This document shows positions 2,893 through 57,311 of a DNA stretch of 64,000 nt, piece after piece (within the stretch, counting starts at the first letter, position 1; each line of letters opens with the position of its first letter). The stretch is taken from the NCBI RefSeq assembly GCF_000383975.1, contig NZ_KB913017.1, positions 1,531,105 to 1,595,104 of the forward strand. Reading direction: 5' to 3'. The position numbers and the translations under genes were made by a program. The stretch is from Natronorubrum tibetense GA33 (GTDB lineage: Archaea > Halobacteriota > Halobacteria > Halobacteriales > Natrialbaceae). The notes below the pieces were generated by a model. It made no database searches and was not told where the DNA came from. It saw only the letters and a program-made list of their open reading frames with translations.

Positions 2893-4203
2893 TCATGTCG
2901 ATTCCGCGACGCCGCAGTAATCGATCGCCGACGTCGCGAGCGTTTGGGCGGTCTCGAGCAGCGACGTGACCGTCGTATATTCGTCGACGCCGTGGAGGTT
3001 CGGGCCGTAGGGGCCGGCCGTGACGACGGGGACGTCGTAGTAGCGCTGATAGAACCGCTCGTCTAAGGCGGCGTTGCCGCCGACGAAGGTGCCCTCCTCG
3101 CCGATGATGGACTCGGCGTTCCCCTTGACGATCTCGACGATATCGGCGTCGCGGGCCACCTCGTGTGGCGCGGCGTTCCAGCCGGTCCACTCGACGGTCG
3201 GCGGGTTCTCGGCGAGCCATTTGTCCTCCTCGGCCGCGGCCTCAATCGTCCCCTCGATCGCCTCGCGAACGTCGGCCCGGCTCTCGCCCGGCGGCCAGCC
3301 GACGCGCCCTTTCATGACCATTTCGGCGGGCACCGAGGCCGGCCAGTCGCCGCCCTCGACCACGCCGATGTTGATGTTGGTGACGTGGCCCTCGAGCGAC
3401 GGATCCGCGCCGTAGGCCGGCGGGAAGTCGATGCTCGCCTGGCGCTCGTCGTTGAGTTCGTTCAGCGCCGCGGCGACGTGACTCGCCTTGTCGAAGGCGC
3501 TGACACCCTGGTGGCCCCACGCGGCGTGGGCCTTCTTTCCGGGGACCGTCACGTCGAAGAACATCACGCCGGCGCTGGCGATGCCGACGTTCGGCAGGCC
3601 GAAGGGCTCCGGGATGATCGCCGCGTCGGGAACGTAGCCGCGCTCTAAGACCGAGAGGAGGCCGCCGACGCCGCCGGCTTCCTCCTCGATCGTGCTCTGG
3701 ACGTAGAGGTCGCCCGCGAGGTCGACGCCCTCGTCGGCGAGGGTCTCGACGGCGAGGAGGATGGCGGCGAGTCCGCCCTTCATGTCCGAGACGCCGCGGC
3801 CGTATATCTCGTCGCCCTCGCGGCGAAGCGTCCACGGGTCCGACTCCCACGCCGACTCCGGATCGGCAGGTACGACGTCGATATGTCCCGAGAGTGCGAG
3901 CGTCGGACCGTCGCCCGCGCCGTCGACGGTCGCCACCGCGTTCTCTCGGCCCTCGTAGCCGTGGTCGTCGTACGAGGAGGTGTGGAAGAAGCCCGGATGA
4001 TCCGACAGGGCGTCGGCGTCCGGCTCCCACGTGTCGACTTCGAGGCCGAGTCTGTCGAACTCCTCGAGCATGACGGCCTGTCCACAATTTTCGTTTCCGG
4101 TGACGGAGTTTGCGGCGACGAGTTCCTCGAGCGTTTCGAGCAGCTCATCCTCTCTCGCGGCTATTGATTCCCGTACTCGTGACTTTGCCGTCTGTGCGTC
4201 CAT
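2893..4203 (-). CDS. M20 family metallopeptidase/amidohydrolase (ArgE/DapE/ACY1-like)
   Basis: 436-residue zinc hydrolase expected to cleave an N-acyl, N-carbamoyl or dipeptide amide bond in the cytoplasm. Metal-site motifs are visible in family order: SGHIDVVP (His107, Asp109), GRGVSDMKGG (Asp140), TIEEEAGG (Glu173-175), IPEPFG, and a C-terminal GPNLHGVDEY histidine. The lid/dimerisation domain lies between. The ATG at 4203 is preferred to a TTG at 4251. The gene is divergent from the tctC binding-protein gene. It is paralogous to the M20 gene at 8274-9545 on the other side of the transporter, including the unusual ALSDHP/ALAEHPSF segment, so the same transporter may feed both. Substrate not determinable. 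Confidence 0.88.
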   Translation of the reverse strand: MDAQTAKSRVRESIAAREDELLETLEELVAANSVTGNENCGQAVMLEEFDRLGLEVDTWEPDADALSDHPGFFHTSSYDDHGYEGRENAVATVDGAGDGPTLALSGHIDVVPADPESAWESDPWTLRREGDEIYGRGVSDMKGGLAAILLAVETLADEGVDLAGDLYVQSTIEEEAGGVGGLLSVLERGYVPDAAIIPEPFGLPNVGIASAGVMFFDVTVPGKKAHAAWGHQGVSAFDKASHVAAALNELNDERQASIDFPPAYGADPSLEGHVTNINIGVVEGGDWPASVPAEMVMKGRVGWPPGESRADVREAIEGTIEAAAEEDKWLAENPPTVEWTGWNAAPHEVARDADIVEIVKGNAESIIGEEGTFVGGNAALDERFYQRYYDVPVVTAGPYGPNLHGVDEYTTVTSLLETAQTLATSAIDYCGVAEST

Positions 4204-4378
4204 GCGGGGGAATGGACCGTCGAAGTGATATACGTATTCGTCTTGCGGCAACGGACAGTTTTTGTTAGATGTAACCGTTTCTCGGATAGAACACCATATG
4301 TGACTACTGATTAGCTGTCTAACAACAATAATAACTGCAGAATCATCTCTCCCGTTCGTGAACGATCTCTGGCGAAAA

Positions 4379-4388
4379 GGTTATCAAT
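4379..4388 (+). promoter_or_regulatory. Putative promoter of tctC
   Basis: TTATCAAT-like box centred about 28 nt before the tctC ATG at 4413. The intergenic space also has a CGTTC-GT-GAACG inverted repeat at 4353-4364 flanked by direct ATCTCT repeats, which could be an operator between the divergent M20 and tctC genes. Confidence 0.45.
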
Positions 4389-4412
4389 TACTGATTCATG
4401 GAAGCTATTAGC

Positions 4413-5426
4413 ATGGACAGACGAACTTTCGTCAAATCCGCTGGTGCAGCGAGCGTAATTGGAATGACCGGCCTTGCAGGCTGTCTCGGTGACGATGACT
4501 CCCGCACGTGGATGATCCCGTGGGGAGAAGGTGGCGGAACGGACACGTACGCCCGTCAGATGCAACCGCTGGCCGAAGAGGAACTCGACGGCTCCATCGA
4601 GATCGAAAACCGGGAAGGTGCCGGTAGTATGATCGGCAGCGAGTGGCTCCACGGTCAGGAAAACGACGGGAGCGTCTTCGGGACGGTAAACCCTGCGGGA
4701 TGGAGTTTTACCTGGCGAGCCTCGGAGATCGACGACTGGCACCCGGACGATTTCGAGCCGATCGCCTACTCCGGGATCTTCGGCTACACGCTCATCGTGA
4801 ACGACGAGTACGAAATCGAGAGCTTCGACGGTCTTCGCGACGCGTACGAAGACGGCGACATCTCCGGCTTCGGCTACCAGGGTGCCGGCAGCGACAGTCA
4901 CCTGACGACGCTGCTTCTCAGAGACGAGTACGGCCTCGAGTACGACAACGCCGTCCCGTACGATGGCGGTGGACCGACTCAGGAAGCCGTGATCAGCGAC
5001 GAGGTCGGCGCTGGCTTCGCGACGAACACGTCTGCCGTCTCGGCTGAGGAGTCCGGCGAGGCATCCGCCGTCGTCAACCTCATGGATATCGATCTCGACG
5101 GCGTGTTCCCGGGTATCGACTCGATCACCAACTACGGGGACAGTCTGGCCTGGATCACGGAGTTCTACCAGGTGCAGGTTGCTCCGCCGGACACGCCGGA
5201 AGACGAGCGTCAGGAGATTTCCGACGCGATTCAGTACGCGTGTGAACACGAAGAGACCCAGGAGTGGATGGAGGAGACCGGAAACATCGTCGAGTACGGC
5301 GATATGGACGCTGCTGCGGAACAGTACGTCGGAAGCGTCGACGCGATAGAAGAGAACGTTGACGAAGCGATCGGTGGCTTCGACGAGTTCCAGAGAATGG
5401 CTGAGGAGGCAGAAGAGGACGAATAA
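4413..5426 (+). CDS. tctC: Tripartite tricarboxylate transporter substrate-binding lipoprotein (TctC family)
   Basis: 337-residue extracytoplasmic solute receptor. It has a Tat signal (RR at residues 3-4), a hydrophobic stretch and a lipobox LAGC with Cys24, so it should be exported folded and lipid-anchored. The mature part follows the TctC/Bug fold: WGEGGGTDTYAR near the start, ENREGAGSMIGSEW, FGTVNPAG, and a YDGGGPTQEAVISDEVGAGF motif in the centre. Family members bind carboxylates, and some bind amino-acid derivatives. The genes for the two membrane subunits follow. An earlier in-frame ATG at 4398 is possible, but the twin-arginine spacing favours 4413. Confidence 0.9.
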   Translation: MDRRTFVKSAGAASVIGMTGLAGCLGDDDSRTWMIPWGEGGGTDTYARQMQPLAEEELDGSIEIENREGAGSMIGSEWLHGQENDGSVFGTVNPAGWSFTWRASEIDDWHPDDFEPIAYSGIFGYTLIVNDEYEIESFDGLRDAYEDGDISGFGYQGAGSDSHLTTLLLRDEYGLEYDNAVPYDGGGPTQEAVISDEVGAGFATNTSAVSAEESGEASAVVNLMDIDLDGVFPGIDSITNYGDSLAWITEFYQVQVAPPDTPEDERQEISDAIQYACEHEETQEWMEETGNIVEYGDMDAAAEQYVGSVDAIEENVDEAIGGFDEFQRMAEEAEEDE

Positions 5427-5638
5427 GACGTCCGAAACTCACTCACTACCCATACTAATCCGTTCTGACCAACAGGGGGAACCACAACAACGTATATACT
5501 TTCGATACTATAAATGTCATACGCTGAACAACACGCCAGACGTGTTCGTACACGCCGACTCTTGACCCGATCAGGGAGACGGGACGTCGGTGTCGAACGC
5601 GTCGTAGTCGAAACCGGAGCCGTCGAACAAGAGCCACC
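5427..5638 (+). other. tctC-tctB spacer
   Basis: A 212-base gap inside an otherwise compact transporter operon. It is AT-richer than its surroundings and has TATATACTTTCGATACTATAA-type runs around 5492-5513, but no convincing gene. It could hold a second promoter or a 3' processing/termination site that lets the binding protein be made in excess. This is inference. Confidence 0.35.
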
Positions 5639-6601
5639 ATGGACCAGAAACACACGCCGATAGACGCGATCAGTCATCGTCTCCGCCCACTCCTCACCAC
5701 GCTGGCGGATGGCGGTGAGAAAGTGTTGGGCGAACGACCGACGATGGAACACGTGTTGCTGGTGTTGTTCCTCATTACTGGTGTGTACATGTATCTGGGG
5801 GCATCCGAGTTCGCTCCGGCCGCACAACGGTTCCCGCAACTCATGGCCGGCGCGACGGTCGTGTTTTCGGTGCTCTTGCTCGCACGAAACTATCTGACGG
5901 TTGTCGGACCGCTCGCCGGTGCTCTTTTGGGTGGATACTTCGCCTACGTGGGCGGGAGCGCATTCGTTGACACCGGAGACGGCCTCTTCTATCTGATTTC
6001 GGGCGCCGTTCTTTTCGTCGTTGCCGTCGTTTTTCGCGAGCGATTCGGCGCCGCAGTCGAGTCGTTCGTTGCGGAACCCGTCCAGGTGATGGGTGGCGAC
6101 GACAGCCAACCGAAACAGGCCGACGAGGATGCCGATACGACGCTCGAGGAGGAACCCGAGACCGACGCAGACTCGATCGAGGAGCGCACAGCAGACGAAT
6201 CCGAGTCAGAGACTGACGAGGAGGCGGAATCGGAGGACGAGGGATCGGCCGCGATGTACGTCTACGAAATCGACGATCCGCGGGGCCCCATCGTTACTGG
6301 CGCGCTCTGTACGGTGTACATGTTGCTGACGTTTTCGATCGGGATGCTTTATGCAACACCAATTTTCGTCGCGCTCTGGACGCTTTGGGTTCGAATGGAC
6401 GTTCTCAAAGCGGTCGCGATGGTCGTTCTTAGCTTCATGATCTCCCAGGCATTCTACGATTTCGTCGAACGAGATGTCGCTCGAGGCTGGCTCACTGGGT
6501 GGCAACCGCCGACACCGGCCGACCTGCTCAGCGTCTCGCCGCACACTAACCTGTTCCCACACACTATCGAGCTGCTGCAGTGGGGTGTTCTGCTCGGATG
6601 A
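5639..6601 (+). CDS. tctB: Tripartite tricarboxylate transporter TctB-family membrane subunit, with long acidic insert
   Basis: 320 residues, about twice the usual TctB length of roughly 150. Hydrophobic helices lie near residues 35-55, 60-80, 88-110 and 112-130. A strongly acidic cytoplasmic stretch, about residues 150-205 and almost entirely Glu/Asp/Ser/Thr, follows, and then three helices near 218-235, 238-255 and 260-282. It is the small membrane partner of the TctA permease and overlaps tctA by the ATGA stop/start. The acidic insert and extra helices are unusual. Assignment rests on position between tctC and tctA and on topology, since TctB sequences are poorly conserved. Confidence 0.78.
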   Translation: MDQKHTPIDAISHRLRPLLTTLADGGEKVLGERPTMEHVLLVLFLITGVYMYLGASEFAPAAQRFPQLMAGATVVFSVLLLARNYLTVVGPLAGALLGGYFAYVGGSAFVDTGDGLFYLISGAVLFVVAVVFRERFGAAVESFVAEPVQVMGGDDSQPKQADEDADTTLEEEPETDADSIEERTADESESETDEEAESEDEGSAAMYVYEIDDPRGPIVTGALCTVYMLLTFSIGMLYATPIFVALWTLWVRMDVLKAVAMVVLSFMISQAFYDFVERDVARGWLTGWQPPTPADLLSVSPHTNLFPHTIELLQWGVLLG

Positions 6602-8112
6602 CGGTGGAATCGTTCGTCGGTGCGATCGAGATGCTACTGACTGCCGAGACGATGATTTGGCTGCTCGCCGGCGTCATCATCGGGATCATCGTCGGTGGCC
6701 TGCCGGGGCTCGGACCGCCACTCGGTATGGCTATCATCCTGCCGTTAACGCTTCCGATGGAGGCCTCGAGTGCCATTATCCTACTCGTCGGGGTCTACAG
6801 CGGGTCGATGTACGGTGGGTCGATCGCGGCAGTGTTGATCAACACCCCCGGAGTATCATCGTCGGCAGCGACAATGTTCGACGGCTATCCGATGTCCAAG
6901 CAGGGGCGAGCGGCGACGGCGTTGGCGATTTCCGCCACCGCCTCGGCAATCGCCGGACTGTTCACCATCACGGCGCTGATCCTGTTCTCGCCGGGACTGA
7001 TCCAGATGGTGCTCGCAGTCGGGACGCCGGAACGGTTCCTCGTCGCGATCCTCGGGTTGGCGATGATCACCGTCGTCACGAAGGGATCGGCTGCAAAGGG
7101 GCTGCTCGCTGGCGCTGCTGGGCTGTTGGTCACGACCGTCGGCGTCGCCCAACCGATCTCGCTCGATCGTCGGTACGCTGAATCGCTGTACCTCTACGAC
7201 GGGATCGACTTCGTGGCAGTGCTGATCGGGTTGTTCGCGATCGCGGAGATGATGAAACTCGCCGGGCAGAAAGGCGGCATCGCAGAGGATGACGTCGAAA
7301 TCGACAAGGCGGGAATCAAGGAGGGAGTCGTAACGACGCTCAAACATCCCGTGACGGTCTTCAAGTCCGCGAACATCGGGTTGATCGTCGGTGCGATCCC
7401 CGGTGCGGGTGCGACGGTGTCGAACTTCGTCGCGTACACCGAAGCGGTCCGCTCGTCGAAAGATCCCGACTCGTTCGGGTCCGGAAACGAGGTCGGTGTA
7501 ATCGCCTCGGAGGCGTCCAACAACGGCACCGTTGCCGGCTCGCTCGTGCCCGCAATTTCGTTCGGTATTCCGGGCAGTTCCTCGACTGCCGTACTCATCG
7601 GCGGCCTACTTATGCACGGCCTCAGACCGGGGCCAAGCATGTTCGATCCCTCGGGCGAACTCCAGTTGACGTATACGCTGCTGTTGGCGTTGCTCGTCGG
7701 TAACGTGGTTATCCTGATCGTCGGGCTGTCGATGGTCACCCGACTCAGCTACCTGACAAAGATCGACACGAACTACATCATCCCCATGGTCGTCGTGCTC
7801 TCGTTCCTGGGTACGTACGCGCTGCGGGGGAACCCGATCGACGTGCTGACGATCATCGTCTTCGGGGTGATCGGCTTCTACATGGTCCGGTACAACTACT
7901 CGGTGATCGCGTTCGTCCTTGGGGTCGTCCTCGGTGACATCGCCGAGGGGAACCTCTACACCGCCATGCAGCTCTCGGACGGCTCGTTCATGATCTTCGT
8001 CAATCCGTTCGAGTACGGCCGATGGCTGTCGCTGGTGCTGAGCATCCTGATCGTGCTCCTCATCTTCGGCCCGTACGTCAAACAGTGGTGGGAACGGCAC
8101 CAATCGGCGTGA
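6598..8112 (+). CDS. tctA: Tripartite tricarboxylate transporter large permease (TctA family)
   Basis: 504-residue polytopic membrane protein that forms the transport channel for the TctC-bound substrate, driven by an ion gradient. Diagnostic motifs are GGLPGLGPPLGMAIILPLT near residue 33, the Gly/Ser-rich YSGSMYGGSIAAVLINTPG around 68-85, and in the second half GAIPGAGATVSNFVAYTEA and ISFGIPGSSSTAVLIGG, the duplicated TctA signature. The ATG at 6598 overlaps the tctB stop (ATGA), implying translational coupling. A GTG at 6580 is a less likely start. This is the most securely identified gene of the cassette. Confidence 0.95.
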   Translation: MTVESFVGAIEMLLTAETMIWLLAGVIIGIIVGGLPGLGPPLGMAIILPLTLPMEASSAIILLVGVYSGSMYGGSIAAVLINTPGVSSSAATMFDGYPMSKQGRAATALAISATASAIAGLFTITALILFSPGLIQMVLAVGTPERFLVAILGLAMITVVTKGSAAKGLLAGAAGLLVTTVGVAQPISLDRRYAESLYLYDGIDFVAVLIGLFAIAEMMKLAGQKGGIAEDDVEIDKAGIKEGVVTTLKHPVTVFKSANIGLIVGAIPGAGATVSNFVAYTEAVRSSKDPDSFGSGNEVGVIASEASNNGTVAGSLVPAISFGIPGSSSTAVLIGGLLMHGLRPGPSMFDPSGELQLTYTLLLALLVGNVVILIVGLSMVTRLSYLTKIDTNYIIPMVVVLSFLGTYALRGNPIDVLTIIVFGVIGFYMVRYNYSVIAFVLGVVLGDIAEGNLYTAMQLSDGSFMIFVNPFEYGRWLSLVLSILIVLLIFGPYVKQWWERHQSA

Positions 8113-8273
8113 GACGGCGCCGCTAGCTCTCATTCCTGTTTTTCGTCTCGCTTCACTTCTGGCGGGTCGATCGCTCCGTGTTCGACCGTCGACCCGTGGG
8201 TACTCACTGGTGTCCGACACGAACGCGGCCGGAGTCCCACTGGTATTTTGACCCGCTGCTTCCTGCGTCGTGT

Positions 8274-9545
8274 ATGGAGTTTTCGACAGCGTGGGACGAC
8301 GAACTACGGTCGTTCGTCGACGAACTGTGTCGGTTCGAGACGACCGCCGGAGACGAGGCGGCCGCCCAGCAGTGGCTCGCCGACATCCTCGAGGACTGGG
8401 GCTTCGAAACATACCGATGGGAGGCCAAAGCCGAGGCACTCGCGGAGCATCCCTCCTTTCCCGACGACCCGGCGGAACTCGAGACGGCGAACCGGCCGAG
8501 CGTGGGTGGTGTTCTCGAGTTCGGAGATCCGGACGCGGGGAAGACGCTGGTGCTGAACGGCCACGTCGACGTGGTCCCGCCGGGGAACGGCTGGAAGGGG
8601 GATCCGTTCGAGCCGCGGTGGAGCGATTCCGATGCGGACGAGACAGGTGAAACGCTCACGGCTCGCGGTGCGACCGACATGAAAAGCGGGCTCGCGGCCT
8701 GTGTCTTCGCGGCGCGACACCTCGCGTCGACCGAACCCGCATTCGACGGCCGACTCGTCGTCGAGAGCGTCGTCGGCGAGGAGGAAGGCGGTATCGGCGC
8801 GGCAGCAGCGGCGCTCGAGAATCCCTATCCCTTCTCGCGGGACGCGGCGATCGTCGCCGAACCGACGCAGTGCCGGCCGGTGATCGCCACTGAAGGGAGT
8901 CTGATGAAGCGCCTGCGCCTCGAGGGTCGGTCGGCCCACGCGGCGACGCGCTGGCACGGCGAGTCCGTCCTCCCGCCGTTCGAGCGGATCCGCGGGGCGT
9001 TCGACGACCTCGAGACCGAGCGCGGCGAGCGCGTTACCCACCCGCTCTACGAGGAGTTCCCGATCCCGTGGCCCGTCTGCGTCGGTCGCGTCGAAGCGGG
9101 CAACTGGGCGTCGTCGGTGCCCGACGAACTCATCGCGGAGCTTCGGATCGGCGTCGCGCCGGGCGAGACGGTCGACGAGGTCGAACGAGAGTTCGAGCAG
9201 CGATTGGCCGAGATCGTCGCCGACGACCCCTTTTTCGACTCGAACCCGCCCGAATTCGACCGGTTCTCGATCCAGTTCGAGCCCGCCGAGACGGATGCCG
9301 ACGAGCCGGTGGTCCGGGCGGTACAGGAGGCGATGGAGACGATGGAACTCCCGGAGACCGAGCCTCGAGGCGCGACCTACGGCGCGGACAGCCGCCATTA
9401 CGTCCGCGCCGGGATTCCGACGGTGCTGTTCGGTCCCGGCGACATCCAGCAGGCGCACTTCCCCGAGGAGTCGATCGAGTGGGCGGAGGTGCTGACGGCG
9501 AGCGAAACGATCGCTGAAGCGGCGACGGTATTTTTGGCGGACTGA
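8274..9545 (+). CDS. M20 family metallopeptidase/amidohydrolase, second paralogue
   Basis: 423-residue zinc hydrolase of the ArgE/DapE/ACY1 class. Visible motifs are LNGHVDVVPPG (metal His and catalytic Asp), GATDMKSG (bridging Asp), VVGEEEGG (catalytic and metal Glu), VAEPTQ (metal Glu) and a C-terminal region with YGADSRHYV and FGPGDIQQAHFPEE (His ligand). The ATG at 8274 was chosen because upstream in-frame codons do not encode family sequence. It lies 161 bases after tctA on the same strand and is followed closely by a hydrolase-fold gene. With its paralogue at 2893-4203 it frames the TTT transporter, consistent with hydrolysis of an imported amide. Confidence 0.88.
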   Translation: MEFSTAWDDELRSFVDELCRFETTAGDEAAAQQWLADILEDWGFETYRWEAKAEALAEHPSFPDDPAELETANRPSVGGVLEFGDPDAGKTLVLNGHVDVVPPGNGWKGDPFEPRWSDSDADETGETLTARGATDMKSGLAACVFAARHLASTEPAFDGRLVVESVVGEEEGGIGAAAAALENPYPFSRDAAIVAEPTQCRPVIATEGSLMKRLRLEGRSAHAATRWHGESVLPPFERIRGAFDDLETERGERVTHPLYEEFPIPWPVCVGRVEAGNWASSVPDELIAELRIGVAPGETVDEVEREFEQRLAEIVADDPFFDSNPPEFDRFSIQFEPAETDADEPVVRAVQEAMETMELPETEPRGATYGADSRHYVRAGIPTVLFGPGDIQQAHFPEESIEWAEVLTASETIAEAATVFLAD

Positions 9546-9607: not shown

Positions 9608-10399
9608 ATGCCAACTGCGTCGAATGGGGACGTCTCGTTGTACTACGACCGCGCGGGTGAGGGTGGCGACGCCGAATCGATCGTCTTCGTTCCCGAAGCC
9701 GGCCTCGGCGGCTGGTCGTGGGGCTGGCAACACGCCGCCCTCGCCGGCCCCCACGAGGCCGTCGTCTGGGATCTCCGCGGGACGGGCCGCTCCGACACGC
9801 CGCCGGGACCGTACGACCTCGAGACCCTCGTCGCCGACCTCGAGGCCGTCCTGGCCGACTGCGGGATCCGGAAGGCCCACCTCGTCGGCTGCGGCCTCGG
9901 CGGAGCCGTCGCGCTGCGGGCCGCGCGAGACACGAATCGCGTCGAGACGCTGACACTGTTCGGGACCGCGTCACGAGGCGAGGCGTTCGACCTCGAGCCC
10001 TTGTTCGCGCCGCCGGATGACCGCGCGGCGTTACGGGACTCGCTCGAGACCGGGCTCTCGGAGGAGTTCTGCGAGGCCCAGCCGGAGGTCTGTGACGGCA
10101 TCGTCGACTGGCGGGCCGACGGCGACGCCGACCGCGAGGGCTGGAAAGCGCAGGTGGCGGCCCTCGAGGATTTCGACGCGAACGACTGGCTGGTCGAGGT
10201 CACCCAGCCGACGCGGGTGACCCACGGCGGGGCGGACGAACTGGTCCCGCCTGCGGCCGGGCAGGCGCTCGCTCGAGGGCTTCCACGCGGGGAGTTCGAG
10301 GAACTCGAGGGAGCAGGTCATCTCTGTTTCATCGAGCACTCGCGGACGGTCAACGATCGGATCCTGGGTTTTCTCGAGGCACAGACGGACGACGAGTAG
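9608..10399 (+). CDS. Alpha/beta hydrolase-fold protein lacking the nucleophile serine
   Basis: 263 residues resembling 3-oxoadipate enol-lactonase/esterase-type alpha/beta hydrolases: VWDLRGTGRSDTPPG (residues 54-67), a nucleophile elbow at 93-99, VTHGGADELVPP with the acid Asp210, and GAGHLCF with His238. The elbow reads VGCGLGG instead of VGxSxGG, so the expected serine is Gly96 and the neighbouring position is Cys95. Asp and His are kept. Either Cys95 takes part in an altered mechanism or the protein is not a classical hydrolase. It is 62 bases after the M20 gene and 27 before the ligase-like gene, probably one transcript. Confidence 0.82.
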   Translation: MPTASNGDVSLYYDRAGEGGDAESIVFVPEAGLGGWSWGWQHAALAGPHEAVVWDLRGTGRSDTPPGPYDLETLVADLEAVLADCGIRKAHLVGCGLGGAVALRAARDTNRVETLTLFGTASRGEAFDLEPLFAPPDDRAALRDSLETGLSEEFCEAQPEVCDGIVDWRADGDADREGWKAQVAALEDFDANDWLVEVTQPTRVTHGGADELVPPAAGQALARGLPRGEFEELEGAGHLCFIEHSRTVNDRILGFLEAQTDDE

Positions 10400-10426: not shown

Positions 10427-11740
10427 ATGCTTGCGACTGACCCCCTAGCTACTACGGATTCCGGTGTGGTACGGAGTTATGTGACGCTCTCGCTGGCACG
10501 TCGGGCCGAACGCTTTCCGGATCGGACGGCGATCGTCGACGTCTCCGAAGAACGGCTATACGCACCCGCGGAGACGATTCACGAGAACCGAGTGACGTAT
10601 GACGAACTGTCGGCGATGGCGACGCGGACGGCCGAACACCTCTCGGCGCTCGGCGTCGAAACCGGCGATATCGTCTGTCTCGTCACGCGAAACCGTGTCG
10701 CCTCGCTCGCACTCCTCTTTGCCTGTCGGCGACTCGAGGCCACTTTCTTCCCGATCTCCCACTGGCTGACGCCCGCCTCCGTCGAGCGACCGTTCGACTG
10801 TACCGACCCTGATCTGGTCGTCTCCGAGGCGGCCCAACGTGACCTCGTGCGCTCGATTCCGTTCGATCGCACGGTGACGCTCGATGAACTGGCCGAGGCC
10901 GACCGCGACTCGTTCGAAGCGACGGACGGGTCGGGCGGGGAGCTCCCGTTACTGTTGCTCCACGGCGACGACGGCCGGCCAATCGTCGGCTACTCCGAAC
11001 GCGCTCTCGAGTGGAACTGCATCTCGAATCTCGTCACGTGGAGGCTGTCGGCTGACGATGTCGTCCCGCTCGTGACACCTCTCTCGGCGGCCGATGGGCT
11101 CGTTCGCGCCGCGTTATCGACGCTCTACGTCGGTGGCACGCTCCTGCTCGACCGGGCGTTCGATCCCGGCGATACCTTGGTCGCCGTCGAGTCGGAAACG
11201 GCAACGTTCCTCGCGGGCCGGAACCAGTCGCTGTCGGATCTGACGGCCGAGTCCGGATTCGCCGACCGCGCCGACTCCCTCGAGCGGGTCGTCGTCGAGG
11301 GACCGATGGAGGACGAGGTTCGCGAACGGTACCGCGAGGCCGGCGTCTCGGTCGCTCGAGCGTACGGGCGACTCGAGTGTCCGACTGCGTTGAGCCAGTC
11401 GCTCGAGTCGACCGATGCCAGTTCGTCGACTGCGGAGTCACCGACTCGTAATGCGACCGACGTCGGCCGTCCAGTGCCGGACTGTCGCGTCCGCCTGCGC
11501 GACGCGGACGGAACTGTCCTCGAGGGCGAGGCGACGGGACGACTCGAGCTTTCCGGCCCGGTCGTAGCCGGCGGCTACGTAAACGCTGCCGGAACCGACG
11601 ACGAGAACGGGGACGCTGGCGCAGACGTTCGGAACGAACTGTCCGACGACATCGACGGCCGCGGACGGTTCGGCGACGGCTGGTTCGAGACCGGCGAGCG
11701 GTTCCGACGGACGTCGAAGGACGCGTATCGGCCACAGTGA
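10427..11740 (+). CDS. AMP-dependent synthetase/ligase-like protein, degenerate and C-terminally short
   Basis: 437 residues with the N-terminal fold of acyl-CoA synthetases (ANL family). It has YDELSAMATRTAEHLSALGVETGD and CRRLEATFFPISHWLTP early, AYGRLECPT in the middle and GWFETGERFRR at the end. The ATP P-loop, normally SGTTGxPK, reads HGDDGRPI at 179-186 with both Thr and the Lys lost. YGxTE is YGRLE. The protein stops at the hinge, so the C-terminal domain with the catalytic lysine is missing. The frame is clean and codon use matches its neighbours, so it is likely expressed, perhaps as a non-catalytic binding protein. It follows the serine-less hydrolase by 27 bases. Confidence 0.75.
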   Translation: MLATDPLATTDSGVVRSYVTLSLARRAERFPDRTAIVDVSEERLYAPAETIHENRVTYDELSAMATRTAEHLSALGVETGDIVCLVTRNRVASLALLFACRRLEATFFPISHWLTPASVERPFDCTDPDLVVSEAAQRDLVRSIPFDRTVTLDELAEADRDSFEATDGSGGELPLLLLHGDDGRPIVGYSERALEWNCISNLVTWRLSADDVVPLVTPLSAADGLVRAALSTLYVGGTLLLDRAFDPGDTLVAVESETATFLAGRNQSLSDLTAESGFADRADSLERVVVEGPMEDEVRERYREAGVSVARAYGRLECPTALSQSLESTDASSSTAESPTRNATDVGRPVPDCRVRLRDADGTVLEGEATGRLELSGPVVAGGYVNAAGTDDENGDAGADVRNELSDDIDGRGRFGDGWFETGERFRRTSKDAYRPQ

Positions 11741-51695: not shown

Positions 51696-53240
51696 ATGGT
51701 GAACACGACACTCTCACGACGACGATTGCTCGGCGGACTGGCTGCTGGCAGTGTCGCCGGTATCGCCGGCTGTGCGTCCAGTGCTGACGACGATACGGCG
51801 TTTACGATTATCCCGCACATGGATCCGACGGGGACCGGTGACTTCTGGGAGACGTGGGGCGGGATGACGCCCTACTGGACTCGAGTCATCGAACCGCTGG
51901 TGTGGGGAACCGACGATATGCAACCCAAGCCGTGGCTCGCGACCGACTGGACGGCGACCGACGACACGACGTGGGTGTTCGAACTCCGCGAGGGGGTCAC
52001 CTTTCACAACGGCGCAGAGATGACCGCAGACGACGTCGTCCACTCCTTCGAAGAAGACATCCTGACCGAGCGCGGCGATTTCGTCCACGGCTGGCTGCAT
52101 CTCGAGCCCGGCAGCGTAACGAAAATCGACGACTACACCGTCGAATTCGAAAACACGGAGCCGTTCTCTGGGTTCCCCGGAACGATCGCCCACAACATGA
52201 TCGATATTCAGCCGCCCGAGGCCGACCGACGGGCCAGTGAGATTATCGGCACCGGACCGTTTACGTTCGAGGAGAAAACTGACGGTCAGCAGCTCCGAGT
52301 CGAACGCTTCGACGACTACTGGGGCGGTGATGTAGAGCCGACAGAACTCACGTTCCGGGCCGCCGAAGACGTGATGACCCGGACGGACCTCCTCGCGTCC
52401 GGCGAGGCCGACATCATCATCGATCCGGCGAAGAGCCGCGTCGGCTCGCTTCGTGACCGCGACGATATCAGCCTCGAGACGGCCCAGTCATCGGGATCGA
52501 ACTTCGTCTCGATCAACATCCACCGTGAGCCGACGGACGACGCCGACCTCCGGCGGGCGCTCAACTACGCCATTTCACAGGCCGGAATGGTCGAGACGAT
52601 ACTCGAGGGGATCGGCGAACCCGCCCGCGGCCCGGTCTCGACGGTGATCGACTGGGCGGCGTTCGACGAACTCCCGGCCTACGAGCGTGACCGAGACGCC
52701 GCCCGCGACCTCGTCGACCAGTCGTCGTACAACGGCGAGGAGCTCTCCATTCTCGTCGAGAACGATATGGACGACGGCCGGGACATCGTCCAGATCCTCC
52801 AATCGGACTTCGAGAAGATCGGCGTCGAGGTCGACGTCGAGGTGCTCGAGCGCGCGGCGGTGAGCGATCGGACCGATCAGGGCGAGTTCCACCTCGAGGT
52901 GGGGGGCTCGCAGTCGAACAGTCCGGCGGCGGACTACATTATGTGGGAGAACTTCCACACGTTGGGTATCAGTAACAAGGATCTGTACGATGCCGAGGGG
53001 ACGGGGTTGTACAACCTCGGTGGCGAGGTCGACGACCTGATCGAAACGGGCTTCCAGTCCACCGATCCCGAGGAGAAACGCGAGGCGTACGTCGAGGCGC
53101 AACGTCGGATGATGGAGGAGGCGGTCGTCATTCCGCTGTTCTACCAGGAGTACGTCGTCGCCGCGGACGCCGATATCGACGGCATCGATCTCCACCCCAT
53201 CGATCGCCTCGTCGAGTGGCGAACCCTGACCAGCGCGTAG
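51696..53240 (+). CDS. Dipeptide/oligopeptide/nickel ABC importer substrate-binding lipoprotein
   Basis: 514 residues of the SBP_bac_5 family. Tat signal LSRRRLLGG, lipobox IAGC with Cys26. The mature protein has the family cues WEPLV-like EPLVWGT near the start, FELREGVTFHNGAEMTADDVVHSFE, IGTGPFTFEEK, and the late DDADLRRALNYAISQAGMVETILEG. It captures a peptide or metal chelate and passes it to the two permeases encoded just downstream (one base gap, 53242). The ligand is not determinable. Possible dppA. Confidence 0.9.
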   Translation: MVNTTLSRRRLLGGLAAGSVAGIAGCASSADDDTAFTIIPHMDPTGTGDFWETWGGMTPYWTRVIEPLVWGTDDMQPKPWLATDWTATDDTTWVFELREGVTFHNGAEMTADDVVHSFEEDILTERGDFVHGWLHLEPGSVTKIDDYTVEFENTEPFSGFPGTIAHNMIDIQPPEADRRASEIIGTGPFTFEEKTDGQQLRVERFDDYWGGDVEPTELTFRAAEDVMTRTDLLASGEADIIIDPAKSRVGSLRDRDDISLETAQSSGSNFVSINIHREPTDDADLRRALNYAISQAGMVETILEGIGEPARGPVSTVIDWAAFDELPAYERDRDAARDLVDQSSYNGEELSILVENDMDDGRDIVQILQSDFEKIGVEVDVEVLERAAVSDRTDQGEFHLEVGGSQSNSPAADYIMWENFHTLGISNKDLYDAEGTGLYNLGGEVDDLIETGFQSTDPEEKREAYVEAQRRMMEEAVVIPLFYQEYVVAADADIDGIDLHPIDRLVEWRTLTSA

Positions 53241-53241
53241 G

Positions 53242-54186
53242 ATGTACCACTACCTCGTCTCTCGACTCGCGACATCGCTCGTCGTCCTCTTTGGCGTCTC
53301 GGTCGTCACTTACGGGTTGGTCTTTTTGACCCCCGGCGACCCCGCCAGAACCATCCTTCGCCAGCAACTCGAGCGCCAACCCTCCCAGGCCGAAGTCGAG
53401 GCGTTCCGGGCCGAACAGGGTCTCGACGAGCCGATTCCGATCCAGTATCTCGACTGGCTCTCGGACGCGTTGCGCGGCGACCTCGGCACGTCCTACTACA
53501 CCGACACTGCGGTGACGACGCTCATTCTCGATGCGCTCCCGCTAACGCTCGAGTTGGCCGCCGCGTCGATGGTGGTCGCGCTCGCGCTGGCGATTCCGAC
53601 CGGCGTATTGAGCGCCGTCCACCGCGGTACGTCCGTCGACTACGCGAGCCAACTTGGCGCCTTGGTCGGCGTCTCGATGCCGAACTTCTGGCTGGGCTAC
53701 CTGCTCATCATGGTGTTCGCACTGACCCTTGGCGTTCTCCCGGTCGCCGGTGCGGGAAGCGTCGGCCAACTCGTCCTCCCGGCGATCACCCTCGGGACCG
53801 GCATGGCCGCCATCGTCACCCGACTGGTCAGAACGTCGATGCTCGAGGTACTGGACGAGGAGTACGTCGATACGGCCCGATCGAAGGGGCTTCGCGAACG
53901 GATCGTGATCTACAAACACGCGCTTCGGAACGCGCTTATCCCCGTCGTGACGATCGTCGGGCTCCAGTTCGGCTCCCTGCTCAACGGCGCGGTCGTCGTC
54001 GAAATCGTCTTCCAGCGGCCGGGACTCGGCATGCTGCTCGTCGACGCCGTCTTCGACCGCAACTACCCTATCGTCCAGGGAATCGCGCTGTTCACCGCCG
54101 TGATCTTCGTCGCGACGAACCTGCTGGTCGACGTCACTTACCGGTATCTCGACCCGCGCGTCACGCTCGGGGGTGAGACGCCGTGA
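53242..54186 (+). CDS. ABC importer permease, DppB/OppB family
   Basis: 314 residues, six helices. The EAA loop is RLVRTSMLEVLDEEYVDTARSKGL, with the typical FGVSVVTYGLVFLTPGDPARTILR at the N-terminus. It starts one base after the stop of the binding protein gene and overlaps the second permease by the GTGA stop/start. It forms the inner-membrane channel with DppC. Confidence 0.93.
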   Translation: MYHYLVSRLATSLVVLFGVSVVTYGLVFLTPGDPARTILRQQLERQPSQAEVEAFRAEQGLDEPIPIQYLDWLSDALRGDLGTSYYTDTAVTTLILDALPLTLELAAASMVVALALAIPTGVLSAVHRGTSVDYASQLGALVGVSMPNFWLGYLLIMVFALTLGVLPVAGAGSVGQLVLPAITLGTGMAAIVTRLVRTSMLEVLDEEYVDTARSKGLRERIVIYKHALRNALIPVVTIVGLQFGSLLNGAVVVEIVFQRPGLGMLLVDAVFDRNYPIVQGIALFTAVIFVATNLLVDVTYRYLDPRVTLGGETP

Positions 54187-55112
54187 GTGAGTCGAACGGG
54201 ACGCTCGAGTCGGGCGCCCGACGCCGCTACGAACGCGCGCTGGGACGCTATCGGTCGGCTTGCAACTCCCGTGCGGTCGCGACGTTCTGTTCGAGTCCGC
54301 TCAACGTCGCGGGACTGGGTATCGTTGCGGCGATAACGGTTGCGGCCGTTCTCGGTCCGATTTTCGCCCCCTACGAGCCGGCGAGCCAGGACCTCGCGAA
54401 CCGGCTGCAGGGTCCGTCGCTGGCGCATCCGTTCGGGACTGATCAGCTCGGCCGGGACGTCTTCTCGAGAGTGCTCCACGGCGCGCGACTCTCGCTCGGA
54501 ATCGCCGTCGTGGTTACCGCGATCAGACTCGTGCTCGGAACGACGATCGGGCTGGTCGCGGGCTACGCCGGCGGCTGGGTCGACGAGGCCCTGATGCGGC
54601 TTGTCGACGTCCAACTCGCGTTTCCGGGACTGATCCTCGCGCTGGTGATCGCCGGCGTTCTCGGACCGAGCCTCCGAAACGTGATGATCGCGCTCGCGGC
54701 CGTCGGCTGGGCCTCGTACGCGCGGATCGTCCGTGGGAGCGTCCTTTCGACCAGAGAACGCGAGTTCGTCCAGGCCGCACAGCTGATGGGCGTCTCGCGC
54801 GTTCGGATCACGATCAGACATCTCCTGCCGAACGTCGCCAGCCCGGTTATCGTCCTCGCCACGCTGAACATGGGAACGGTCATCCTCGGAACGGCCGGGC
54901 TCTCCTTCATCGGACTCGGTGCGCAGCCGCCCACGCCGGAGTGGGGAACGATGCTCTCGGCCGGCCGGTACCACCTCCGGGACGCCTGGTGGATCGCGAA
55001 CGCGCCGGGCGTCGCGATCATGCTTACCGTCCTCGGATTCAACCTGCTCGGTGACGGTCTGCGCGACGTTCTCGACCCGAAACACGATCCTACCCCCGAA
55101 AAATCCGCCTGA
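54183..55112 (+). CDS. ABC importer permease, DppC/OppC family
   Basis: 309 residues, about six helices, with the EAA loop REREFVQAAQLMGVSRVRITIRHLLPN and the N-terminal GPIFAPYEPASQDLANRLQGPSLAHPFGTDQLGRDVFSRVLHGARLSL typical of DppC. It starts at a GTG overlapping the dppB stop, so it is translationally coupled. Partner of the permease encoded upstream. Confidence 0.93.
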   Translation: MSESNGTLESGARRRYERALGRYRSACNSRAVATFCSSPLNVAGLGIVAAITVAAVLGPIFAPYEPASQDLANRLQGPSLAHPFGTDQLGRDVFSRVLHGARLSLGIAVVVTAIRLVLGTTIGLVAGYAGGWVDEALMRLVDVQLAFPGLILALVIAGVLGPSLRNVMIALAAVGWASYARIVRGSVLSTREREFVQAAQLMGVSRVRITIRHLLPNVASPVIVLATLNMGTVILGTAGLSFIGLGAQPPTPEWGTMLSAGRYHLRDAWWIANAPGVAIMLTVLGFNLLGDGLRDVLDPKHDPTPEKSA

Positions 55113-55118
55113 CAATCC

Positions 55119-57311
55119 ATGCGTGATCTCCTCACCGTCGAAAACCTTCACACGCAGTTTCGAACCCGCGAGGGAACCGTTCGCGCCGTCGACGGCGTTT
55201 CCTTCAGCGTCGACGACGGCGAGACCGTCGGTATCGTCGGCGAAAGCGGCTGTGGCAAGTCCGTCACCGCCCGCTCGATCGTCGGCCTACAGGATCCCGG
55301 CGAGATCGTCGCGGGATCGATTCGACTGGACGGCACGAACGTTCCCGAGGCGACCGATCGACAACTCAGGAAACTCCGCGGTGACACCGTGTCGATGGTG
55401 TTTCAGGATCCGACCCAGACGCTGAACCCGGTGTTCGATGTCGGCGAGCAGATCGCCGAGTCGCTCAGCGTTCACGACGATCCCGACTCGCAGCGATTGC
55501 TCGACTACCTGCACGCACCCCTGTTCAGCCGCCGATCGAAGTGGGAAGACCACCGCGAGCGCGCTGTCGACCTCATGGAGCAGGTCGGCATCGCGAGTCC
55601 CGAAGACCGGGTCGACGCCTATCCGCACGAACTCTCCGGCGGCATGCGCCAGCGCGCCGGTCTCGCCATCGCGCTGGCGTCAGATCCCGACTTGCTGATC
55701 GCCGACGAACCGACGACGGCGCTGGATACGACGACACAGGCACAGATCTTAGCGCGGCTTCGCCGGCTCAGCGACGACCGCGGAATGGCCCTGCTCCTGA
55801 TCACGCACGACCTCGGTGTCGTCGCCGACATCTGCGATCGGGTCGTCGTGATGTATGGCGGGCAAGTGATGGAGACTGGACCGACCGACCGCGTCCTCGA
55901 GGACCCGCGCCACCCCTACACGCGGGCGTTGCTCGAGTGTCTGACCCGGACTACCGACCGAAAGCAGCGGCTGCCGACCATCGAGGGTACCGTTCCGGAA
56001 CGAGTCGGCGAACAGTCGGGCTGTCCGTTCGCGTCCCGCTGCCCGTCGGCGACCGACGCCTGTCTGTCCGGTGAGATTCCCACTGTGGATCTCGTTGACG
56101 GCAGCGCGACCTGTGGCGAACCGATCGTGTTCGAACCGTCCGAGTGCGCCGCTGGAGGTACGGACGATTCGCTCGAGTCGGCCACACCCGTCGCGAGCGC
56201 CTCGACGACGGCTGGCACGTCGGCTGTCTCGGCTGCCGCGGAATCCGTCCCGACTGACCGTTCGCAGTCCCGGCCGGGTGGGACCTCGGCCGACGACCGG
56301 CTCGGGCCGTCGGACTCGAATGCGAGTTCAGCTCCGGCGGGAGACCAACCGGTCGTCGCCCTCGAGGGCGTATCGAAACGGTTCTCGCTCGACGATGGGG
56401 TGTTCGACCGCGTCTTCGGACGGACGCGAGACCTGCAGGCGGTCGACGATGTCAGCCTCGAGATCGGTGCCGGCGAGACGCTCGGCCTCGTCGGCGAGAG
56501 TGGGAGCGGCAAGTCCACGCTCGCGAACCTCGTCACCGGTCTCGAGGCACCGACGAGCGGCGAGGTCCGTCTCGACGGCGTTCCCGTCGGTCCCGCGGGC
56601 GACCGCTCGCCGGACACGCTCGCCGACATCGGCGTCGTCTTCCAGAACCCTCACTCGAGTCTCAACCCCCGGATGACAGTCGAACGGACGATCACCGAAC
56701 CGTTGCGGGCGCGAGGGTGGGACGAGGGTCGTCGACGGGAGCGGGTCAGCCACCTCCTCGAGGTAGTGGGTCTCTCGGAGCGCTACGCGAGCCAGTATCC
56801 ACACGAGCTCTCCGGCGGCCAGATCCAGCGGGTCGCGATCGCGCGGGCGATCGCCCTCGACCCGAAGTTGGTTGTTCTCGACGAACCCGTCTCCGCGCTC
56901 GACGTTTCGGTACAGGCTCGTATTCTCAACCTGTTGTTGGACCTCCAGCGCGACCTCGAGTTGACGTATCTCGTCATCTCCCACGATCTGGACGTGATCG
57001 AGCACGTTGCGGATCGGATCGCCGTCCTGTACCTCGGCGAACTGATGGAGGTCGGTCCCGCCGAAGCGGTGTTCGAGCGGCCGGCCCATCCCTACACGGC
57101 GGCGCTGCTCGAGGCGATTCCGTCGCTCGGCGGAAGTGGGTCGGGATCGGTCGGCTTCGAGGGCCCGATCCCGAGTCCCCTCGACGCGCCGAGTGGCTGT
57201 CCGTTCCGCACGCGGTGTCCGGACGCCGAACCGAAATGTGGCGACGTCCGTCCGGACTGGACTCGAGCCGGGCCGGCCCGATCGAAGTGTCACTTTCCGC
57301 TCGAGCGGTGA
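55119..57311 (+). CDS. Fused DppD-DppF ATPase for the ABC importer
   Basis: 730 residues with two complete ATP-binding cassettes. The first has Walker A GESGCGKS near residues 41-48, signature [13 protein letters not shown] and Walker [13 protein letters not shown]. The second has Walker [10 protein letters not shown] near 455, signature [13 protein letters not shown] and Walker [13 protein letters not shown]. Each half ends with the oligopeptide-transporter motif [15 protein letters not shown] / [16 protein letters not shown] variable Ser/Thr/Pro linker of about 70 residues joins them. It replaces the usual separate dppD and dppF genes. Confidence 0.94.

Follow-up and report, generated by a model that had tools for sequence, protein, structure and literature searches.

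A TctCBA transporter locus with flanking ArgE/DapE-type deacylase genes in Natronorubrum tibetense: a candidate uptake-and-deacylation module

We analysed a stretch of 64,000 nucleotides from Natronorubrum tibetense GA33 (hereafter the window), in which positions 2893-9545 carry an apparently complete set of tctC, tctB and tctA genes between two genes for M20 amidohydrolases, M20_1 and M20_2. The reading that we favour, with roughly even confidence, is that TctCBA and M20_1 make up an uptake-and-deacylation module whose substrate is a carboxylated N-acyl compound and to which M20_2 is more loosely attached. The linkage of M20_1 to the transporter recurs in related genomes, and M20_1 relatives often lie beside importers of other classes.

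Results

The order and strands of the five genes are those given in a preliminary description of the same DNA, and all five belong to the families named there; the start sites needed refinement. M20_1 (2893..4203, minus strand, 436 aa) is divergent from tctC (4413..5426, plus strand), which is followed on the plus strand by a tctB-like gene (5639..6601), tctA (6598..8112) and M20_2 (8274..9545, 423 aa). For M20_1, the ATG at 4203 is aligned across nearly all relatives and a ATACGTATATC-like box is conserved about 27 bp upstream of it, so that translation most likely starts there and not at TTG 4251. For tctC, the alignment of relatives puts the start at ATG 4413, from which the protein has a Tat/lipobox signal, and shows a conserved AAAA..TTAT box upstream. 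The intergenic region between the two divergent genes (4204..4412) hence holds two conserved boxes of the leaderless promoter type, and its alignment over 10 relatives showed no conserved operator common to both promoters. The gene caller places the start of tctA at ATG 6598, in an ATGA overlap with the tctB stop, while M20_2 starts at ATG 8274, with a T.TTTTG box about 27 bp upstream that is invariant in 8 relatives in the promoter alignment. A separate promoter-like box is conserved at each of M20_1, tctC and M20_2, and a single operon of all genes is thus not favoured.

Downstream of M20_2, abH (9608..10399, plus strand) encodes by Pfam match a PcaD-like alpha/beta hydrolase. It belongs to the conserved alaS...abH-AMP-ligase-GATase backbone, which is kept with or without the transporter, and its association with the TctCBA/M20 module is uncertain. 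The gene after abH (10427-11740), likewise conserved whether the transporter is present or absent, encodes an AMP-binding acyl ligase-like protein of 437 aa without a match to the C-terminal AMP-binding domain.

TctA matches PF01970 (E 4e-127; 425 bits, cut-off 28.9) and is the large membrane subunit of a TTT system; it is 100% identical to TctA of N. texcoconense, where most neighbouring proteins are about 77-98% identical. TctC matches PF03401 (E 3e-13; 50 bits, cut-off 27) as the substrate-binding protein, its relatives in the PDB are terephthalate-binding and Bug proteins, and it keeps the Bug-type glycine-rich loop GGGTDTYAR. TctB matches PF07331 weakly, below the cut-off (E 0.005; 17.4 bits versus 29.1), and its assignment leans on a position conserved in TTT relatives, a conserved family and a helical model of low confidence (pLDDT 63). 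It carries an acidic, Glu/Asp-rich insert at about residues 150-205, the length of which varies strongly between relatives. TctB is known to be poorly conserved (PMC5812351).

TTT systems have been described mainly as carboxylate importers. Bug/TctC proteins typically bind carboxylates (PMC5812351). The set in the window resembles the bacterial TctCBA/Bug systems (TC 2.A.80) in its tctC, tctB, tctA order, its glycine-rich loop and its tctB-tctA overlap, but differs from them in being archaeal, in having a Tat-lipoprotein as TctC and an acidic insert in TctB, and in being flanked by M20 deacylase genes with no regulator gene. A literature search of partial coverage found no characterised TTT system paired with a deacylase or amidohydrolase. 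According to a 2018 review that cites work from 2003, archaea have TctA but neither TctB nor TctC (PMC5812351). Since 86 of 293 sampled haloarchaeal genomes have PF03401 matches, this statement is out of date for TctC, and positions 4413-8112 of the window hold a complete archaeal TctCBA, with TctB only weakly matching its Pfam profile. In addition, TctC genes that look orphaned occur at other loci (L341, 7982-8992; L333, 7718-8743), and a genome of another family (G190) has a TctC gene without tctB or tctA between alaS and abH (L343:8071-9132), the same place as that of the trio in the window.

Both flanking proteins have the Pfam domains Peptidase_M20 and M20_dimer. Enzymes of the ArgE/DapE type cleave N-acyl amino acids. 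M20_1 exceeds the cut-off of the ArgE/DapE family deacylase profile TIGR01910 (281.7 bits versus 217.6), and M20_2 falls just under it (216.5 bits). The active sites are intact: H107, D140, E174, E175, E199, H226 and H404, which from general knowledge of DapE we take to be the di-zinc ligands and the catalytic Glu-Glu, are invariant across 16 orthologs of M20_1 and M20_2. The model of M20_1 (mean pLDDT 71.5) has its best fold match in 3pfo (Z 32.7 over 397 residues, rmsd 3.3), followed by 5-nitroanthranilate aminohydrolase and DapE. This protein, RPA2325 of Rhodopseudomonas palustris, is also the best sequence match of M20_1 (E 4e-56), yet the two are only 27% identical and 3pfo itself bears the name of a putative acetylornithine deacetylase.

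The preliminary description had singled out an unusual ALSDHP/ALAEHP segment as common to the two M20 proteins. Across both ortholog groups the L and the HP of this segment never vary, and the corresponding stretch of 3pfo reads IASHP, so the motif is a feature of the subfamily and not the sign of a special pair. M20_1 and M20_2 are 30% identical and fall into two deep, separate clades of the tree, each with nearer relatives elsewhere. They are by sequence old paralogs, and a recent tandem duplication is rejected.

In relatives, the backbone of alaS, abH, the AMP-ligase gene, the GATase gene and a gene for a large Fe-S protein is conserved, and the interval between alaS and abH is variable. 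M20_1-tctCBA-M20_2 occupies this interval in Natronorubrum (L031, L035) and several Natronococcus; Natrialba chahannaoensis (L037) has the interval without M20_2, Natrononativus (L192) and Halobiforma nitratireducens (L033) have tctCBA alone, and four genomes (G095, G016, G094 and G045; loci L187, L188, L189 and L196) have M20_2 with neither M20_1 nor tctCBA. In G104 (L186) the trio has decayed together, leaving a remnant of TctA flanked by M20_2 and a fragment of M20_1. In G037 the trio sits in the gap from abH to the GATase gene and the alaS-abH interval holds another TTT system, so that one locus (L195:6383-17160) has two TTT systems, one of them with M20_1 and M20_2. G085 (L194) has tctCBA with an M20_1 fragment at an unrelated locus, and similar surroundings in Natrononativus (L190) carry M20_1 without tctCBA. 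Most of the linked cases of M20_1 and TctCBA share one ancestral synteny. With a total of 15 M20 genes in the 4.93 Mb genome, it is unlikely that two such genes flank one transporter by chance, and the arrangement recurs in relatives. A gene of the acetamidase/formamidase family lies between alaS and M20_1 in several Natronococcus loci (L049:3259-4245, also L032 and L036), and at related positions in L187 and L192.

Co-occurrence in relatives had been proposed as a check of the pairing, and it bears out the pairing for M20_1. Among 125 Natrialbaceae genomes, with orthologs hand-picked from match tables at identities of at least 81% (M20_1), at least about 74% (TctA) and at least about 72% (M20_2), 14 carry an intact M20_1 ortholog, 21 a TctA ortholog and 19 an M20_2 ortholog. 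Of the 14 genomes with intact M20_1, 13 have a TctA ortholog, which adjoins M20_1 in 12, compared with 8 of the 111 other genomes, in relatives that share ancestry; the Fisher p values for co-occurrence (2e-11 to 8e-10) are hence to be read as strength of association and not as a count of independent events. The exception, G105, has M20_1 alone in the alaS-abH interval (L185), and G100 keeps all three genes, in three separate places (L190, L191 and L192). In the 8 genomes with TctA and without intact M20_1, TctA mostly lies among housekeeping genes. At other haloarchaeal TTT loci, 0 of 40 have an ArgE/DapE-type M20 gene, so there is no general rule in haloarchaea that joins TTT systems to M20 enzymes.

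As equal partner of the transporter, M20_2 fared less well. A TctA ortholog is co-present in 14 of the 19 M20_2 genomes. Besides a promoter box of its own, M20_2 has abH and the AMP-ligase gene, the block that it heads, close behind it. It persists without tctCBA at the locus in the four genomes named above, and elsewhere it occurs beside a nitrite-reductase-like gene, within a Pot-ABC cluster and within a cluster of Liv-ABC and aldehyde dehydrogenase genes. The transporter is thus tied less closely to M20_2 than to M20_1. M20_2 homologs at a conserved locus with an apparent ferredoxin nitrite/sulfite reductase, named by eye, were seen in L191, L197, L198 and L199.

The adjacency of importer and M20_1 recurs beyond one inherited synteny, and it does so less clearly for M20_2. 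In the TctA tree, the TctAs linked to M20_1 fall into two clades, one of Natronorubrum, Natronococcus and Natrialba, the other with L039, L195 and L194 among TctAs without M20. A single clade of all linked TctAs is rejected by the AU test (p 0.0017; 0.0009 without L194, the fragment case), for a group that was chosen after the tree had been seen. Because the linked TctAs split while the intact M20_1 proteins group together in the M20 tree, either the pairing arose repeatedly or M20_1 stayed in place as its neighbouring tctCBA was exchanged, and each of these fits a functional tie.

The nearest relatives of M20_1 outside the locus are haloarchaeal proteins that are 50-69% identical. At 22 of 38 such loci, an ABC importer of the Pot, Liv or Dpp type lies nearby, as marked by its permease or binding protein, versus 1 of 20 regions drawn at random from that genome set; the tally of the 38 loci was made by eye and is approximate, counts importers 6-7 kb away as absent and includes related genomes. 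Annotated plasmid records show, by product names, the same neighbourhood of M20_1 paralog and ABC importer. Since its closest paralogs thus often adjoin ABC importers of three classes, the importer of M20_1 seems, from gene neighbourhoods, to be exchangeable.

ABC-importer clusters with an ArgE/DapE-family deacylase, in haloarchaea (Natrononativus L258, Halalkalicoccus L257, Haladaptatus L254) and bacteria, are alike to the window in that the importer adjoins an M20_1-family deacylase. The Natrononativus cluster, of the Pot-ABC type, has an M20_2-like gene as well, together with genes for a class III aminotransferase, a carbamoylase-type hydrolase and a class II histone-deacetylase-like protein. 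These clusters differ from the window in the PotABCD-, Liv- or Dpp-type importer that stands in place of TTT, and several carry aminotransferase, carbamoylase and histone-deacetylase-like genes, which the locus in the window lacks. A further likeness is a Bacillus gene annotated, as is NF005373, as a peptidase and lying beside ablB, CoA-transferase and aminotransferase genes (L262), whose product is about 35% identical to M20_1; in contrast to the window, this cluster has no importer. We presume the gene to be yodQ. YodQ of B. subtilis has been described as an uncharacterised metallohydrolase (PMC4476798).

Discussion

In the mechanism that we propose, TctC would act as an extracellular lipoprotein that binds a small carboxylated amide, which TctB and TctA would import by secondary transport. 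M20_1, as a dinuclear-zinc deacylase of the ArgE/DapE type, would cut the amide bond in the cytoplasm, and the amino compound and the carboxylic acid so released would enter catabolism. As a more independent member of the same superfamily, the deacylase M20_2 may process a related product or one further downstream. M20_1 stems from a haloarchaeal clade that is more often found with ABC importers, the importer here being a TTT system instead; by analogy, the module may work like the ABC-importer and deacylase clusters, with TTT in the place of ABC. Gene content, intact active sites, recurrent linkage and separate promoter boxes are observed, whereas we infer the direction of transport, the functional link and the class of substrate. 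Of such classes, amino or diamino acids with an N-acyl group such as N-acetyl appear likeliest, with the enzyme family as what favours them. The preliminary description had proposed uptake followed by intracellular cleavage by both flanking enzymes. For M20_1 this is supported by the co-occurrence, the two TctA lineages and the paralogs beside ABC importers; for M20_2 as an equal partner it is not. A fuller version, in which the TTT system imports N-acylated amino or diamino acids and is thereby tied to amide hydrolysis, an archaeal deacylase family has swapped ABC importers for a TTT system, and the two M20 enzymes cut one after the other, is offered as a tentative and rather doubtful extension.

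TTT systems have been little studied. If the link to M20_1 holds true, amide-bearing substrates would join the range of TTT systems, and the locus would be a testable example of how a family of catabolic enzymes retains its role while the class of its importer changes.

The main rival, to which we grant a substantial minority share of probability, is that the genes are neighbours with no shared function, that is, a free-standing carboxylate TTT system and two unrelated catabolic M20 enzymes that have been inherited together in the variable alaS-abH interval. Indeed, many relatives have TctCBA without M20 among housekeeping genes, the 40 other TTT loci have no such enzyme, the promoter boxes are separate, and M20_2 stands at the locus without TctCBA or at other loci altogether. 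On the other hand, a TctA ortholog is missing in only one of the 14 genomes with M20_1, two TctA lineages are paired with it, and the M20_1 fragment of L194 accompanies tctCBA at another locus.

Scavenging of peptides, where the cargo of TctC would be an acidic di- or tripeptide, to be cut by the M20 enzymes as dipeptidases or carboxypeptidases, is unlikely. PepV, carnosinase and carboxypeptidase G2 are members of the M20 superfamily and give strong structural matches (Z 25-27), and some M20_1 relatives adjoin Dpp-type ABC importers; yet both M20 proteins are by sequence nearest to ArgE/DapE deacylases, and the genes that recur beside the paralogs encode amidase, carbamoylase, aminotransferase and histone-deacetylase-like proteins, not peptidases.

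Slightly less credit still goes to nitrogen salvage from N-carbamoyl or N-formyl compounds, with the nearby acetamidase/formamidase of Natronococcus and relatives handling the released amide. The FmdA_AmdA-family gene does occur at the locus in L032, L036, L049, L187 and L192, and hydantoinase/carbamoylase genes adjoin M20_1 paralogs. However, the formamidase gene is absent from the locus in the window and from other full loci, L187 has it without the transporter, and carbamoylase forms a separate M20 subfamily to which M20_1 does not belong.

That M20_1 or M20_2 serves the organism as its biosynthetic ArgE or DapE, with no role in uptake, as family name and fold might suggest, is ruled out for practical purposes by the curated cut-offs, far under which both score (ArgE TIGR01892, about 127 bits for both versus 297.7; DapE TIGR01246 and NF009557, 102 and 115 bits for M20_1, 62 and 89 for M20_2, versus 361.8 and 284), and by a patchy distribution unlike that of an essential biosynthetic gene, with M20_1 orthologs in 14 of 125 Natrialbaceae genomes and M20_2 homologs, a wider set than its orthologs, in 44.

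Two further neighbourhoods were observed in passing. M20_1 paralogs that are 57-58% identical adjoin two genes of the LUD type, LutB/LutC-like as read from sequence, with no importer marker (L204, L205 and L206). In the window itself, positions 51726-57311 hold an operon for a Dpp-like ABC importer, with a binding protein, two permeases and a long ATPase protein, all named by eye from the translations.
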